From Pararhodobacter marinus (GTDB taxonomy: Bacteria; Pseudomonadota; Alphaproteobacteria; Rhodobacterales; Rhodobacteraceae): a stretch of DNA of 64,000 nucleotides. The translations under genes were made by a program, and so were the position numbers. Within the stretch, counting starts at the first letter, position 1. Every line of letters begins with the position of its first letter. The stretch is from contig NZ_QEYD01000001.1 of NCBI RefSeq assembly GCF_003122215.1, positions 62,001 through 126,000 on the forward strand. Direction: 5' to 3'. Shown in pieces: positions 33,617-39,515 of the stretch. A model generated the notes under the pieces. That model worked only from the letters and a program-made list of their open reading frames with translations. It ran no database searches and had not been told where the DNA came from.

Positions 33617-34375
33617 TCAGGCAAAGCTCAGCGTCGAGGCAAATTCCCTCAGCGCGGCCACCGTCGCGCCCTGCGCCTCGGCCAGTGCCGGGTCGGTGCC
33701 GATCAGCGTGACCACCGCCTGCGCTTCGCCCTGCCAGTCGAGAACCGGCGCGGCGATGGCGACAAGGCCCGGGATGAACCGGCCGTCCACCCAGGCGAAG
33801 CCCGCCTTGCGCATCGGCGCGACCAGCGCCGCGACGCCAGCGGCGTCGCACGGCAGATCGCCCGTCGCGCGTCCCATTTCGGCCTGCAGCACGCTTTGCA
33901 GCGGAGCCTGCGGCGCCCAGGCCAGAAAGGCCCGTCCGGTCGCGGAGTTGAGCAACGGCATGACCGTGCCCAGCCCCATCGAGGTCACGGTCGGCACCGC
34001 CGCGCGTTCCCAGCGCACGACCGTCGCGCCCTGCGTGCCCCAGACCGACAACAGCGCGGTCAGCCCCGTCCGTTCGACCAGATCGGGCAGAGCATCGGCG
34101 GTCCGGTTGACGAAATCGTGCCGGGCCAGCGCCGACAGGCCCAGCCGGATCGCGCCGGGGCCAAGGTCGTATTTCCCCGACCGCCCGGCCTGCACGACCA
34201 GCCCGGCATGCAGGAAACTGGCCAGGTAGCGATGCACTTTCGAGGGCGGCATGGCGCAATCGCGCGCCAGTTCGCTCAGCGAAACGGCCTCGCGCCGCCC
34301 GGCCATCTCGGCCAGCAGCCTGAGGGCGGCATCGAGCGACTGGATGCCGCCGCTGGAATCGTCTTCACCCTTCAT
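33617..34375 (-). CDS. IclR-family transcriptional regulator
   Basis: This 252-residue regulator has the winged helix at 10-70 (SLSELARDCAMPPSKVHRYL) and an IclR effector domain with RTGLTALLSVWGTQGATVV near 100 and the SATGRAFLAW motif near 145. Its start overlaps the end of the thioesterase gene. The ATG at 34375 is used, but a TTG at 34384 has the better-placed AAGGA. It is cotranscribed with the thioesterase and divergent from the fusion gene, so it most likely controls both. Confidence 0.87.
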   Translation of the reverse strand: MKGEDDSSGGIQSLDAALRLLAEMAGRREAVSLSELARDCAMPPSKVHRYLASFLHAGLVVQAGRSGKYDLGPGAIRLGLSALARHDFVNRTADALPDLVERTGLTALLSVWGTQGATVVRWERAAVPTVTSMGLGTVMPLLNSATGRAFLAWAPQAPLQSVLQAEMGRATGDLPCDAAGVAALVAPMRKAGFAWVDGRFIPGLVAIAAPVLDWQGEAQAVVTLIGTDPALAEAQGATVAALREFASTLSFA

Positions 34376-34778
34376 GGCGCGCAATCGCGTCCTTCAGCTC
34401 GCTCATGTTTCCCGCGACGATACCGTTTTCGGCCGGCTTGAACAGCCCGCGGATCTCGGTCCCCGTGGCGGTGACGGTGTCGCCCAGACGGATCTCGTAA
34501 TCCAGCGTCAGCGACTTCCGGCCCCAGTCGCGGATCGTCATCGCCACGCGGATCGTGTCATTGGGGCGCATCGGGCGGCGGAAATCGGCCGTCGCGGACA
34601 TCAGCCCCGCGCCCATCGCGCCGACCTCCGCGCAGATCGCCGCATGACCGCCGAACCGGGCCAGCCAGTCGTGGAAGCAGCGATCGAACCAGCCATAGAT
34701 GTTGGGATAGAACACGATCCCCGCCGGATCGCAGTCGCCGAAGGTGACGGTATAGCTCAGCTCGTGGGTAGAGGACAC
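34365..34778 (-). CDS. YbgC/4-hydroxybenzoyl-CoA-type thioesterase
   Basis: This 137-residue hot-dog thioesterase has the active-site region FGDCDPAGIVFYPNIYGWFD near residue 13, where the Asp is the catalytic residue of the 4-hydroxybenzoyl-CoA thioesterase type. DFRRPMRPNDTIRVAM and DYEIRLGD follow. I chose a GTG at 34778 with GGAG eight bases upstream. It is divergent from the fusion gene across an 87-base gap. The likely job is release of a hydroxylated aromatic acid from its CoA thioester made by that fusion enzyme. Confidence 0.85.
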   Translation of the reverse strand: MSSTHELSYTVTFGDCDPAGIVFYPNIYGWFDRCFHDWLARFGGHAAICAEVGAMGAGLMSATADFRRPMRPNDTIRVAMTIRDWGRKSLTLDYEIRLGDTVTATGTEIRGLFKPAENGIVAGNMSELKDAIARHEG

Positions 34779-34865
34779 GTTTTCCGCTCCATAAAAATTA
34801 TTGCGTATATCGGAAAACAATGTACCTTGCCCGCAAATCGGTGTCGAGGTCGGAGGGAGGAGCCC
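34779..34865. promoter_or_regulatory. Divergent promoter region with inverted repeat GTTTTCCG...CGGAAAAC
   Basis: The two perfect 8-bp arms lie at 34779-34786 and 34811-34818 with an AT-rich 24-base spacer (ATAAAAATTATTGCGTATAT within it). This is the only AT-rich gap between the thioesterase and the fusion gene. The symmetry makes it a candidate operator for the IclR regulator. The fusion gene's ribosome site, GGAGGGAGGAG, follows at about 34852-34862. Confidence 0.45.
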
Positions 34866-37562
34866 ATGCCACTTTCAAGCGTTGATATTCTCGGCGGCGG
34901 GCCTGCGGGTCTGTACACGGCAATCCTGCTGCGCAAGGCGATGCCGCATCTGCGACTGCGGGTGTATGAACAGAACCCGCGCGGCGCGACTTTCGGCTTC
35001 GGCGTGGTGTTCTCGGATCAGGCGCTGGACTTCCTGAAAGCCGACGACCCCGAGATCCACGCCACCATCACCCCGGACATGGAACGCTGGCGCAACATGA
35101 CGCTGAACCTGCCCGAGGGGCAGGTCACGTTGGACGGCGTGGGCTTTTCGGCGGTCGGGCGGAAGGAATTCAACGAGATGCTCGCCGCCCGCGCGCTGGA
35201 CCTCGGCGTCGAGATCCTGTTCGACACGCCGATCACCGCGCTTGACCAGCTGGACGGCGATCTGATCGTCGGCGCGGATGGCCTCAACTCGCTCGTGCGG
35301 CGCTCGAACGAGGCGGGCTTTGCCCCGCAATGGGACACTTTCACCAATCATTTCGCGTGGTTCGGCGCGGACCGGCCCTTCGACACGCTGACCCAGAGCT
35401 TCATCCGGACGGATCGCGGGGCGTTCAACGCGCATCACTACCGGTTCACCCCGGACCGCAGCACCTTCATCGTCGAATGCGACGACGCGACCTTTGCGGA
35501 ATACGGCTTTGCCGGGATGGATCAGGACCAGACGGCGGCGATCTGCGAAGAGGTTTTCTCCCCGATCCTGCAGGGGGCCAGGCTGATCCAGAACAACTCG
35601 ATCTGGCGGCAATTCCCCAAACTTTGGTGCGAACGCTGGGCGGTCGGCAACACCGTCATCCTGGGCGACGCCGCGCATACCGCGCATTTCTCCATCGGTT
35701 CGGGCACACGGCTGGCCATGGAAGACGCCATCGCGCTGGTGAAGGCGCTGTCCTCCCATGACGACCTGACCGAGGCGCTGGAAAGCTATCAGCACGAGCG
35801 GATGCCGATCGCGAAGAAGATCGTCACCGCGGCCAATACCTCGGCCCAGTGGTACGAGGATTTCGCCACCAAGATGGACATGGCCCCCGTCGATTTCGCC
35901 TTCGATTACCTGACACGCTCGGGCCGGGTCGATCTGGACCGGCTGCGCGCCATGGCGCCCGAGTTCATGGCGCGCTGGGATGCCGAGCATAACGCCGCCG
36001 CCCCCGCCGACCCCGTGGGCGACGACACGCCGGGCGCCCGGGCCATCGGCTTCGACAAGGCCGCGCATGCCAATTGCTCGGCGATCCTGTGGGACAACCT
36101 GCAGCGCAACCCCGACAAGCCCGCCGTCACCGGCCCCGCCGGCACGCTGACCTACCGCGACCTGATCGCCGAGGCCGCGCGCTGGGGCAATGCGTTCAAG
36201 GCGGCGGGGCTGAAGAAAGGGGACCGCGTTCCCTTCTTCCTCGATGACACGCCGGCCTATCCCGCGGCCTTCTTCGGCGCGGTGCGCGCGGGTTTCGTGC
36301 CGGTGCTGCTGAACACTCAGACGACGCCCGACCTGCTGAATTTCTTCCTGAAAGATACCGGCGCGCGGATCGCGCTGGTCGAAGAGACGCTGGGCGACAT
36401 CGTGACCGAGACCGTTCTGGCCGGGACCAGCGTCGAGCGCGTGGTGCGGGTCAATGGCGGGGACGATTTCACCGCCGGTCATTCCGACACGCTGGAGGCC
36501 GCCGATACCGGCCCCGATGACATGGCGTTCTGGATGTATTCCTCGGGCTCGACCGGGCGGCCCAAGGGCATCGTCCACCTGCATCACGACATGGCCTATT
36601 CGCAGCAGAGCTTCGGCGCAAAGGTACTGAAGCTGCGGCCCGACGACATCTGCTTCTCGGTGCCGAAGATCTTCTTCGCCTATGGCTTCGGCAACGCGAT
36701 CACCTTCCCCTTCTCTGTCGGCGCAACGACCCTGCTGCTGCCCGGACAGCCGCGCGCCGACGCCGTGCTCGATTGCATCGAGACCTACAGGCCCACGGTC
36801 TTCTTCGGCCTGCCCACGCTCTACACCGCGCTAGCGCGCACGCCGGGGATCGAAGGCCGCGACCTGTCGAGCATCCGGCAAAGCATGTCGGCGGCCGAGA
36901 TCCTGTCGGCGGATATCTACGACGCGTGGAAAGCGCTGGTGGGGCATGGCCCGACCGAAGGCCTGGGCTCGACCGAGATGTTGCATGTCTACCTGTCGAA
37001 CGCGCTCGACGATCACCGGCTCGGTGCGGCGGGTGCGGCGGTGCCGGGCTACGAGATCAAGCTGGTGACGCCCGACGGGGCCATCGCGCGGCCCGGCGAG
37101 GAAGGCGTGATGCATGTGCGCGGCCATTCCAGCGCGCCCTGCTACTGGAACCGGCCCGACAAGACGCGCGAGACGATGCGCGAGGACTGGATCTATACCG
37201 GCGACCGCTTCATCGAAAAGGACGGCTACTACTACTTTCAGGGCCGCGCGGATGAACTGATCAAGGTCTCGGGTCAGTGGGTCTGGCCGCTCGAGGTCGA
37301 GCGCTGCCTCAACGACCATCCCGATGTGCATGAATGCGCCGTGCTGGCGCACGAGCTGGGCGACAAGCGCATGACGCTGCGCGCCGTGGTGGTGATGCGC
37401 GACGGGCGCGCGGGCGATGTTGCGGCGCTGCAGGGCTACGTGAAGGGGCAGTTGCAGCCCTACAAGTACCCCCGGATCGTCGAATTCGTCCCGGCACTGC
37501 CGAAGACCGGCACCGGCAAGATCGACCGTCAGGCGCTCAAACGGATGCAGCCCGCAGGCTGA
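34866..37562 (+). CDS. Fusion: salicylyl-CoA 5-hydroxylase-like flavoprotein with benzoate-CoA-ligase-like domain
   Basis: This 898-residue protein joins two enzymes that are normally separate. Residues 1 to about 385 are an FAD hydroxylase with G10-GGPAG and GDAAHTAHFSIGSGTRLAME from residue 267, like salicylyl-CoA 5-hydroxylase and the monooxygenase part of anthraniloyl-CoA monooxygenase. After a linker rich in Ala, Pro and Asp, residues 400-898 are an AMP-forming ligase with YSSGSTGRPKG (558-568), GSTEMLHVYLSN near 700 and catalytic K885 in GTGKIDRQAL, like benzoate-CoA ligase. Expected activity: activate an aromatic acid such as salicylate or anthranilate to CoA, then hydroxylate the ring. 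The ribosome site is strong. Confidence 0.87.
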   Translation: MPLSSVDILGGGPAGLYTAILLRKAMPHLRLRVYEQNPRGATFGFGVVFSDQALDFLKADDPEIHATITPDMERWRNMTLNLPEGQVTLDGVGFSAVGRKEFNEMLAARALDLGVEILFDTPITALDQLDGDLIVGADGLNSLVRRSNEAGFAPQWDTFTNHFAWFGADRPFDTLTQSFIRTDRGAFNAHHYRFTPDRSTFIVECDDATFAEYGFAGMDQDQTAAICEEVFSPILQGARLIQNNSIWRQFPKLWCERWAVGNTVILGDAAHTAHFSIGSGTRLAMEDAIALVKALSSHDDLTEALESYQHERMPIAKKIVTAANTSAQWYEDFATKMDMAPVDFAFDYLTRSGRVDLDRLRAMAPEFMARWDAEHNAAAPADPVGDDTPGARAIGFDKAAHANCSAILWDNLQRNPDKPAVTGPAGTLTYRDLIAEAARWGNAFKAAGLKKGDRVPFFLDDTPAYPAAFFGAVRAGFVPVLLNTQTTPDLLNFFLKDTGARIALVEETLGDIVTETVLAGTSVERVVRVNGGDDFTAGHSDTLEAADTGPDDMAFWMYSSGSTGRPKGIVHLHHDMAYSQQSFGAKVLKLRPDDICFSVPKIFFAYGFGNAITFPFSVGATTLLLPGQPRADAVLDCIETYRPTVFFGLPTLYTALARTPGIEGRDLSSIRQSMSAAEILSADIYDAWKALVGHGPTEGLGSTEMLHVYLSNALDDHRLGAAGAAVPGYEIKLVTPDGAIARPGEEGVMHVRGHSSAPCYWNRPDKTRETMREDWIYTGDRFIEKDGYYYFQGRADELIKVSGQWVWPLEVERCLNDHPDVHECAVLAHELGDKRMTLRAVVVMRDGRAGDVAALQGYVKGQLQPYKYPRIVEFVPALPKTGTGKIDRQALKRMQPAG

Positions 37563-37611: not shown

Positions 37612-38586
37612 TCAGACCGGGCGCCATTCCGAGAGCGCCTGCTCGACCCGCGCCCATTCCCCGCCATGGGGCAGGCCCAGCCGCAGCCAGGTCTTCGAAT
37701 AGGGGAATCGCCGCGACCAGATCGCGCGCCGGGCCAGATGGTCCTGCGCGCGCTCGGCATCCGGCGTGGCATAGGTGCGAAACAGCGCGGTTCCGCCGAC
37801 CAGCGGCCACCCGGCGCGCGCGGCGCAGGCATCGAGCCGCTCGGCATCCGCGTGCAGCCGCGCGGTCGTGGCGCTCTTCCAGCCGGTGTCGCGCAGCGCC
37901 TTGGCGCCCAGTTCCATCGCCGGGCCGCTCACGCTCCACGGTCCCGCCAGCTGCCGCAGCGCCCCGATCACCGACGGCGCGGCCAGCACGAAACCCAGCC
38001 GCGCGCCGGCAAGGCCGTAGAACTTGCCGAAAGACCGCAGGATCAGCATCTTGTCGTTCAGGCAGGCGACGGCCGAGCGTTCGGGGTGGGGATCGGCAAA
38101 GCTTTCATCCACGACCAGAAAGCCCACGCGCTTCGCCACGCCTTCCAGCGATTCCGCCGTCCAGCTCCGGCCATCGGGATTGTTGGGATTGACCACCACC
38201 GCCAGATCGGCCCCGGCCAGCGCACGGATGCCATCGGCATTCTGCAACGACCAGCCATGCGCCACCAGGCTTGCGGCGTGTTCGTTATAGGTGGGCGCGA
38301 TCACCCGCGCATCCCCGGCAGGCCGCAGGCGCGGGTAAAGCTGGATCGCCGCCTGTGCCCCGGCCACCGGCAGAACCTGATCGGCAGAGACCCCATAGGC
38401 ATCGGCCGCGGCGGCGACCAGTTCGGACAAGGCTTGTGCCCCCGGCAGCCGCGTCCAGGCCTCGGGCGCGAAGGCCGGCACCGGATAGGGGCTGCGATTG
38501 ATCCCGGTCGACAGGTCGATCCATGCCTCGCCGCCATACTGCGCGCGGGCCTCGTCCAGATTGCCGCCGTGGTCCCGTTCTACCAT
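37612..38586 (-). CDS. cobC: Threonine-phosphate decarboxylase for cobalamin (CobC/CobD)
   Basis: This 324-residue fold-type I PLP enzyme begins ERDHGGNLDEARAQYGGEAW, typical of the family. It has VVVNPNNPDGRSW near residue 140, DESFADPHPE near 168, and the PLP lysine in LRSFGKFYGLAGARLGF near 200. It forms (R)-1-aminopropan-2-ol phosphate from L-threonine O-3-phosphate for the lower ligand arm of cobalamin. It is the third gene of an overlapping bluE-cbiB-cobC operon. In Salmonella naming this enzyme is CobD. Confidence 0.9.
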   Translation of the reverse strand: MVERDHGGNLDEARAQYGGEAWIDLSTGINRSPYPVPAFAPEAWTRLPGAQALSELVAAAADAYGVSADQVLPVAGAQAAIQLYPRLRPAGDARVIAPTYNEHAASLVAHGWSLQNADGIRALAGADLAVVVNPNNPDGRSWTAESLEGVAKRVGFLVVDESFADPHPERSAVACLNDKMLILRSFGKFYGLAGARLGFVLAAPSVIGALRQLAGPWSVSGPAMELGAKALRDTGWKSATTARLHADAERLDACAARAGWPLVGGTALFRTYATPDAERAQDHLARRAIWSRRFPYSKTWLRLGLPHGGEWARVEQALSEWRPV

Positions 38587-39515
38587 CCCGTCACCGCCAA
38601 GATTGCCACCATCCCCGCCAGCACCGCCATCGCGTGGCGATAGAGCCGAAGCGCCCGGACAAGATCGGCGGGCGTCGGATCGGGCGCCGCCGCGTTCACC
38701 CAGGGCTCGTTCGAGACGCCCCGCTCGTAAACGCGCGGCCCCGACAAACGGATCCATAGCGCGCCCGCCATCGCCGCTTCGGGCCAGCCCGCATTGGGCG
38801 AACGGTGATGGCGCGCATCCGCCAACACCACCCTGAGCGCCCGGCGGGCCTGGCCGCTGACCAGCGCGAACAGCCCGCCCGTCAGCCGCGCCGGGATCAG
38901 GTTGACCAGATCGTCGATCCGCGCCGAAGCCCAGCCGAAGTGTTCGTACCGCTCGGTCCGGTGGCCGATCATCGAATCCAGCGTGTTGATCGCCTTGTAG
39001 GCGACGATGCCGGGCAGCCCCGCGACCACGCCCCAGAAGATCGGCGCGACGATCCCGTCCGAGCTGTTCTCGGCCAGGCTTTCCACTGCCGCGCGGGCGA
39101 CCCCGGCCTCGTCCAGCCGGTTCGGGTCGCGCCCGACGATCATCGACACCGCGTGACGCGCGGCGGGCAGATCGCCCCTTGCCAGCGGGTCCGCCACGGC
39201 GACAACATGCTGGTGCATCGACCGCAAGGCCACCAGCGGCCAGGCCAGGATCCCGGCGATCACCGTTCCGACCCAGCCCCCGGGCAACAGCGCCACGACA
39301 GCCAGCGACAGGGCGACCGGCACCACGACCGCGATCAGCGCAGCGACCACGCCCTTCATCCGCCGCGCCCCACCCTGGTTGAGGTGGCGTTCCAGCGCCC
39401 CGATCAGCGCACCGATCCATGTCACCGGATGGCCGATGCGGCGATACAGCGCGTCGGGCCAGCCCATGACGGCGTCGATGGCCATGGCGATCAGGATCGC
39501 GGCGGCCGCGCTCAT
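38580..39515 (-). CDS. cbiB: Adenosylcobinamide-phosphate synthase (CbiB/CobD)
   Basis: This 311-residue inner-membrane protein attaches aminopropanol phosphate to adenosylcobyric acid. It has the family features GHPVTWIGALIGALERHLNQ near residue 28, RDPNRLDEAGVARAAVESLA near 130, NSSDGIVAPIFWGVVAGLPG near 150, and YKAINTLDSMIGHRTERY near 173. Four or five hydrophobic segments are seen. It overlaps both neighbouring genes by a few bases, so it is translated with them. It is called CobD in Pseudomonas nomenclature. Confidence 0.92.
   Translation of the reverse strand: MSAAAAILIAMAIDAVMGWPDALYRRIGHPVTWIGALIGALERHLNQGGARRMKGVVAALIAVVVPVALSLAVVALLPGGWVGTVIAGILAWPLVALRSMHQHVVAVADPLARGDLPAARHAVSMIVGRDPNRLDEAGVARAAVESLAENSSDGIVAPIFWGVVAGLPGIVAYKAINTLDSMIGHRTERYEHFGWASARIDDLVNLIPARLTGGLFALVSGQARRALRVVLADARHHRSPNAGWPEAAMAGALWIRLSGPRVYERGVSNEPWVNAAAPDPTPADLVRALRLYRHAMAVLAGMVAILAVTGW

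Follow-up and report, generated by a model that had tools for sequence, protein, structure and literature searches.

Salicylate is converted to gentisyl-coenzyme A (gentisyl-CoA) in two CoA-dependent steps by SdgA and SdgC of Streptomyces, a separate salicylyl-CoA ligase and 5-hydroxylase of actinobacterial origin. CehG, CehH and CehI of Rhizobium sp. X9 are reportedly the subject of Zhou et al. 2021 (Mol Microbiol 116:783). A CoA route for salicylate in this Rhizobium strain is cited in PMC11335346, and SdgC is named in PMC13215587. PhgABC leads from 4-hydroxybenzoate to gentisate (Zhao et al. 2018), as described in PMC7862547. The present work concerns one gene of Pararhodobacter marinus, located in a window of 64,000 nucleotides (C11:62001-126000; the genome assembly comprises 4.49 Mb in 30 contigs). 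The original prediction for this window was an aromatic-CoA ligase joined to a salicylyl-CoA-5-hydroxylase-like enzyme, and both the domains and the gene context bear this out. The fusion is read here as a bifunctional enzyme that probably takes salicylate to gentisyl-CoA, with CehH and CehG in one chain (rough probability 0.7). The gene and its parts, numbered in amino acids (aa), are as follows:

34866..37562, + strand: hydroxylase-ligase fusion gene, 898 aa (P0001); from the translation, Pfam, the AlphaFold2 model and fused homologues.
34866..35999, + strand: N-terminal single-component flavin adenine dinucleotide (FAD) aromatic hydroxylase, aa 1-378, CehH-like; from FAD_binding_3, NF006101 (hydroxylase half only) and the VioD structure.
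35982..36059, + strand: linker, aa 373-398; from the alignment, the predicted local distance difference test (pLDDT) and a ratio of nonsynonymous to synonymous substitutions (dN/dS) of 0.10-0.18.
36060..37559, + strand: C-terminal aryl-CoA ligase, aa 399-898, CehG-like, with a P-loop at 558-568 and K885; from TIGR02262 and benzoate-CoA ligase structures.

Translation of positions 34866 to 37562 gives 898 codons in one open frame without interruption, just as predicted. The frame stays open upstream to 34251. The ATG at 34866, which was chosen as the start, is preceded by GGAGGGAGGAG and aligned with the start sites of relatives. Pfam places FAD_binding_3 at aa 7-322, AMP-binding at 409-761 and AMP-binding_C at 810-885. 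The two sets of catalytic motifs that had been claimed, K885 included, are likewise confirmed by their positions. In the hydroxylase half these are GGGPAG (10-15), GADGLNS (136-142) and GDAAHTAHFSIGSGT (267-281), so that the GxGxxG, DG and GD motifs are all present in one chain; this half is presumably a group A (single-component) flavin hydroxylase. The ligase half carries YSSGSTGRPKG (558-568) and KTGTGK (880-885), where K885 is taken to have the catalytic role of its enzyme class.

The ligase half scores 463.6 bits against TIGR02262 over aa 410-893, above the subfamily cut-off of 375.25. Against NF006101 (cut-off 1078) the whole chain reaches 370.9 bits and matches only profile positions 3-386 of 768, i.e. 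the hydroxylase half. A bifunctional enzyme of the hydroxylase/reductase type was also considered as the identity of the fusion and was ruled out, as the second half is a ligase according to Pfam, TIGR02262 and NF006101. The AlphaFold2 model, built from 46 aligned sequences, has a mean pLDDT of 89.4 and a predicted template modelling score (pTM) of 0.64: both domains are predicted to fold well, while their mutual arrangement is not fixed by the model. The lowest pLDDT blocks of ten residues are 561-570 in the P-loop (64) and 371-380 in the linker (66), with 381-390 at 80. The top Foldseek matches are the benzoate-CoA ligases 6m2o and 4zjz (template modelling score, TMt, 0.84; 38% identity). 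Among the 50 matches listed, the hydroxylase half is matched by VioD (TMt 0.83-0.89, 28-29% identity).

The stop between the domains that a sequencing error might have hidden, as the prediction had cautioned, did not materialize: relatives are in frame and dN/dS is purifying. The closest fused homologues from other assemblies are 93% and 87% identical, and the latter (G015) reads open over 893 codons. The single stop counted in this homologue (a TGA), and likewise in G188 and G154, is the terminal one, because the frame is open to the end of the ligase. By the Nei-Gojobori method (NG86), comparison with the two closest relatives gives dN/dS values of 0.075 and 0.147 in the hydroxylase and of 0.146 and 0.151 in the ligase (aa 399-893). 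The 26-codon linker gives 0.098 and 0.179, a rough estimate with a high dS of 1.4-1.6. A sequencing error or chance open reading frame (ORF) is ruled out by the in-frame relatives (87-93% identical), dN/dS of 0.08-0.18 and the confident fold, and the codon-position gene finder picked no antisense ORF overlapping the fusion. Decay does occur in the family: the Rhizobium beringeri relative L132 is annotated in two overlapping frames as the result of a frameshift. For the window gene, however, a frameshift, an assembly artefact or a decaying gene is exceedingly improbable in view of in-frame fusions in many separate assemblies and of the same dN/dS range across both domains and the linker.

A search for the same domain order in other genomes had been suggested as a check, and the order does recur. 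A near-full-length fused match in one place was found in 7 of the 100 genomes searched (source genome counted). In the family sample (E up to 1e-130), 27 of 394 genomes match, 15 with the fusion and 12 with a separate ligase. The class sample yielded 14 matching genomes out of 385, with the window's own as the only fused one, and the phylum sample (E up to 1e-150) 14 out of 398, two of them fused, again including the window's own. Within the genus, where several assemblies are incomplete, 6 of 18 genomes carry the fusion and 2 of 18 separate genes. Of the 192 plasmid records with a match, 58 cover at least 80% of the query in a single place, fused genes and closely spaced pairs being pooled in this count. 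For several copies of the Rhizobium leguminosarum group the match, or else the annotation, is broken into pieces. Plasmids of nodule bacteria from this group carry fused genes, and the two loci read, L046 and L132, have no ring-cleavage genes nearby. Viral carriage was not found in a single scan, whose patterns came from the window sequence alone.

The origin of the fusion was approached with trees of 77 distinct hydroxylase-ligase pairs, of which 28 are fused, 38 split with an overlap and 11 split with a gap. Dropped beforehand were L001-L028, L031, L035 and L038-L044 (duplicate numbering, incomplete pair, or other loci), ten companion loci of the same places, seven duplicates and the frameshifted L132. 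The careful tree has 63 rows, 14 of the 77 being omitted (12 Bradyrhizobium, L169 and L171). All 28 fused rows fall into one clade of 37 rows (support 100/97), together with 8 gapped pairs and the overlapping pair L149. Outside this clade stand overlapping pairs, the nearest outgroups included; the exception is the distant gapped pair L166, and the distant pairs L169 and L171, present only in the 77-row tree, are likewise gapped. The overlap is 4 nucleotides in 37 of the 38 overlapping pairs (34 ATGA, 3 GTGA) and 1 nucleotide in the other. The tree thus indicates descent of the fusion from an overlapping (ATGA) hydroxylase-ligase gene pair, and the two genes may have been joined by a small indel that changed the frame where stop and start overlap. 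Split ligases start with M..DPV...PGA.EIGF; in the fused chains, translation continues through ..DPV....PGA..IGF. The linker of the window protein marks the ancestral stop/start junction, because it retains this old ligase N-terminus (xDPVxxxxPGAxxIGF). The same ancestry accounts for the domain order: the ligase is C-terminal although it must act first, as had been pointed out, because the ancestral genes stood hydroxylase-then-ligase with a 4-nucleotide overlap.

The gapped pairs of the clade, including the ceh-annotated one, group with locus L131 (99/99) inside the fused clade. In both single-domain trees, made by a quick method with support from the SH-like approximate likelihood ratio test (SH-aLRT) only, the gapped pairs again fall within the fused clade, grouped with the Thalassovita fusion, L047 being unplaced in the hydroxylase tree. 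Approximately unbiased (AU) tests were run on 45 rows (L131, L166, L169, L171 and 28 of the 38 overlapping rows omitted). A clade made of fused proteins alone is rejected: it costs 232 log-likelihood units (p-AU 2.5e-44). Keeping the gapped pairs out of a group formed by the fused rows and L149 costs 125 (p 0.00017), and moving L149 out of the clade costs 46 (p 0.03). These p values are descriptive, since the groups were named after the tree had been seen. As they nest inside the fused clade, the CehH/CehG-type gapped pairs look like a secondary split of the fused protein. L149 and its congener L183 are both overlapping pairs, L149 inside the fused clade and L183 outside the tree sample; they would mean either that the fusion was reversed or that it arose twice.

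On plasmid pSpoCB-3 of Sulfitobacter sp. CB2047 (L131, 4740-8736), a free hydroxylase gene is directly followed by a fused hydroxylase-ligase gene. The free hydroxylase was kept in the hydroxylase tree and left out of the joint tree. The ligase of the fused protein groups with the gapped pairs and its divergent hydroxylase half sits on a long unplaced branch; because the two halves place differently, a re-joining or recombination is suggested. The pair L095, from a record named Mesoflavibacter sp. ih5, nests with alphaproteobacterial rows, either through a possibly mislabelled or mixed assembly or through transfer.

For the proposed function, the neighbourhood of the fusion is of importance:

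34365..34778, - strand: hotdog thioesterase, probable gentisyl-CoA thioesterase (CehI-like); from 4HBT Pfam matches and the CehI alignment.
33617..34375, - strand: IclR-family regulator; from IclR_C and HTH_IclR.
34780..34817, no strand: candidate operator TTTTCC ... ATTGC ... GGAAAA in the divergent intergenic region; from a pattern search.

The thioesterase gene is divergent from the fusion, with 87 nucleotides in between. Its start is probably the GTG behind GGAG, the ORF list having a TTG at 34820. The window protein keeps two Asp at a spacing of 15 residues, in CDPAGIVFYPNIYGWFD. Two Asp at such a spacing are described for the gentisyl-CoA (BH1999) and 4-hydroxybenzoyl-CoA thioesterases in PMC516016; the equivalence is judged by spacing, without a shared alignment. 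The IclR gene has the same orientation as the thioesterase gene and overlaps it, with its start at ATG 34375 (TTG at 34384 in the ORF list). The original prediction mentions neither this regulator nor the thioesterase, whose action would be required to free gentisate from its CoA ester. Downstream of the fusion lies a CobD/CbiB gene on the opposite strand (38580-39515, -).

In Agrobacterium tumefaciens pAt1 the order IclR, divergent thioesterase, hydroxylase and ligase is the same as in the window, with the genes separate. NCBI names them there as cehI (gentisyl-CoA thioesterase), cehH (salicylyl-CoA hydroxylase) and cehG (salicylyl-CoA ligase). Over 99% of its length the fusion shares 66.6% identity with the cehH-cehG pair, and the window IclR is 56% identical to that of the ceh locus. 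The latter continues with genes for a fumarylacetoacetate hydrolase-type protein (FAH), maiA, a cupin and a maleylpyruvate isomerase. The fusion of Nitratireductor sp. OM-1 precedes genes for a tripartite ATP-independent periplasmic (TRAP) transporter, FAH, maiA, a cupin and an isomerase, and the fused locus of Sinorhizobium sojae has the same set. In genomes G009 and G016 the fusion is followed by FAH and a cupin resembling gentisate dioxygenase (GDO).

Neighbours were counted by tblastn (E up to 1e-12) within 9.5 kb, excluding L132, loci of 9 kb or less and the G009 locus (L031/L054); the counts are lower bounds, as many stretches end about 6 kb out. The 16 fused loci have at least 15 IclR, 11 thioesterase, 7 GDO-like cupin, 6 FAH and 4 MaiA genes. 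For the 5 gapped split loci the respective numbers are at least 5, 5, 4, 5 and 5, and for the 25 overlapping split loci at least 9, 4, 19, 3 and 14. The cupins at six of the seven fusions are 77-83% identical to the Agrobacterium cupin and those at gapped pairs 78-85%; the cupins at overlapping pairs and that of the remaining fusion (L050) are 33-36% identical to it.

Thioesterase and IclR genes here, together with gentisate-type ring-cleavage genes in part of the relatives, favour a route from salicylate to gentisate as the best reading. We infer substrate, regiochemistry, cofactor and regulation accordingly from these comparisons, the choice of salicylate drawing on the NCBI ceh names and on Zhou et al. 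2021 as conveyed by a citing sentence. The C-terminal ligase would adenylate salicylate with ATP and pass it to CoA, yielding salicylyl-CoA. The N-terminal FAD domain would then hydroxylate salicylyl-CoA at C5 with NAD(P)H and O2, generating gentisyl-CoA, from which the divergent thioesterase would release gentisate. A dioxygenase/isomerase/hydrolase set elsewhere in the genome could complete the route, and the IclR protein may regulate the divergent promoter. The TTTTCC ... ATTGC ... GGAAAA element is a possible IclR operator: a looser pattern, picked after the sequences had been seen, occurs in 20 of 28 fused loci (shuffle mean 0.78), 3 of 12 gapped and 1 of 43 overlapping ones. A candidate set for ring cleavage is the MaiA/FAH/GDO-like operon some 106 kb away from the fusion, at C11:205454-207818. 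Its cupin is probably a gentisate 1,2-dioxygenase, probable rather than proven because it scores below the TIGR02272 cut-off.

Several points weigh against the salicylate assignment. The ceh names are NCBI annotation, and the activity of the fusion is a prediction. The window locus and its two closest relatives show only IclR and thioesterase, without ring-cleavage genes nearby. Both cupins of the source genome stay below the TIGR02272 cut-off of 442.1 bits (C11 282.9, C22 310.8), as does that of the G009 operon (255.8). Moreover, a paralogue in the same genome (L042, C26:30525-37215) passes NF006101 with 1276.2 bits, where the fusion does not, and it is this paralogue that takes the name 'bifunctional salicylyl-CoA 5-hydroxylase/oxidoreductase', which slightly lowers the confidence in the salicylate reading. 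The C-terminal half of the C26 protein is a reductase of the old yellow enzyme (OYE) type, and a gene of the benzoate-CoA ligase type follows about 4 kb on. We take the NF006101 type to be an aminobenzoyl-CoA enzyme (2-aminobenzoyl-CoA monooxygenase/reductase); salicylate would therefore fall to the fusion, while the name itself points the opposite way.

The strongest rival is a PhgABC-type route, in which 4-hydroxybenzoyl-CoA would be converted to gentisyl-CoA via a 1,2-shift of the CoA-carbonyl group before a thioesterase frees gentisate. It would employ the same three kinds of enzyme and give the same product, so that gene context alone fits it equally well. It is nevertheless unlikely, as the closest annotated relatives are named salicylyl-CoA enzymes; two PobA proteins over the cut-off in the genome, which would take 4-hydroxybenzoate another way, are a weak further argument. 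The breadth of the ligase family, with benzoate and 3-hydroxybenzoate ligases among the best models, leaves room for yet another acid (benzoate, 3-hydroxybenzoate, a substituted salicylate or hydroxynaphthoate), which the linkage to the thioesterase and, in some relatives, to gentisate-type ring-cleavage genes makes improbable. Anthranilate or an amino-salicylate would give 5-hydroxyanthraniloyl-CoA, for cleavage by a cupin resembling 5-aminosalicylate dioxygenase. The ligase does resemble the anthranilate-CoA ligase structure 4wv3, and NF049978 matches the linked G009 cupin (210 bits) and the two cupins of the source genome (204 and 291). The same three cupins score better on TIGR02272, however (256, 283 and 310 bits), and the separate hydroxylase/reductase paralogue with its nearby ligase gene on C26 also makes such a substrate quite improbable.

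Within the salicylate reading, certain segments are largely common to the 28 fused and 8 gapped CehG/CehH-type rows: SVPK..FAYGFGN, GLPTLYTAL and GLGSTE.LH.YLSN in the ligase, AHHYR and AHFSIGSGTR in the hydroxylase. They may line the substrate pocket. The two groups differ in places, for instance SVPKayF vs SVPK.fF and LHiYLSN vs LHvYLSN. What the fusion mainly brings is most likely expression at a fixed 1:1 ratio, and proximity. Channelling of the CoA thioester between the domains is no more than a possibility; the model (pTM 0.64) gives no fixed domain arrangement, and close relatives have two separate proteins. A bolder history, considered doubtful, would make the fused form ancestral in the alphaproteobacterial clade and channelling salicylyl-CoA, the CehG/CehH pair re-split and the Sulfitobacter lineage re-joined. 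If true, nature ran the fusion experiment both ways. The members of the clade form a natural series, from the overlapping pair through the fusion to an apparent secondary split and a re-joining, and largely share their motif segments; with such a series the benefit of enzyme fusion would be directly testable.

Salicylate acts as a defence signal in plants, and several copies of the fusion reside on plasmids of root-nodule and marine bacteria. The route can be missed in annotation, because the database name of the fused proteins, 'benzoate-CoA ligase family protein', hides the hydroxylase half. Salicylate-CoA chemistry and the separate enzymes are already known; what sets the fusion apart is its recurrent architecture and its instructive history, with a putative functional gain. 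No hydroxylase-ligase fusion was found described in the literature searched, a weak negative that says little, since most subscription papers and supplements were outside its scope.

The known systems compare with the fusion as follows. The N-terminal FAD domain of the NF006101 enzyme is homologous to that of the fusion, while its C-terminal half is an OYE-type reductase instead of a ligase. In the benzoate-CoA ligase family (TIGR02262; 4eat, 4zjz, 2v7b), the R. palustris enzyme is 38% identical to the fusion ligase and has SAAK before FFAYG; the fusion ligase has SVPK and is joined to a hydroxylase. PhgABC, compared by description, likewise combines a ligase, a CoA-thioester hydroxylase and a thioesterase to give gentisate, but from another substrate, with a 1,2-shift and from three genes, in contrast to one polypeptide plus a thioesterase. 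SdgA and SdgC, also compared by description, catalyze the same two-step reaction as proposed for the fusion, as separate proteins. Closest are CehG, CehH and CehI, with the same families, the same gene order with IclR and thioesterase and the same putative reactions. Orthology with the ceh-annotated pair is supported by the gapped ceh-type rows inside the fused clade (100/97). CehG and CehH are, however, encoded by two separate genes, 116 nucleotides apart as annotated on pAt1. The fusion is thus a variant rather than a plain CehG/CehH member, because it is one 898-aa frame and not two polypeptides.

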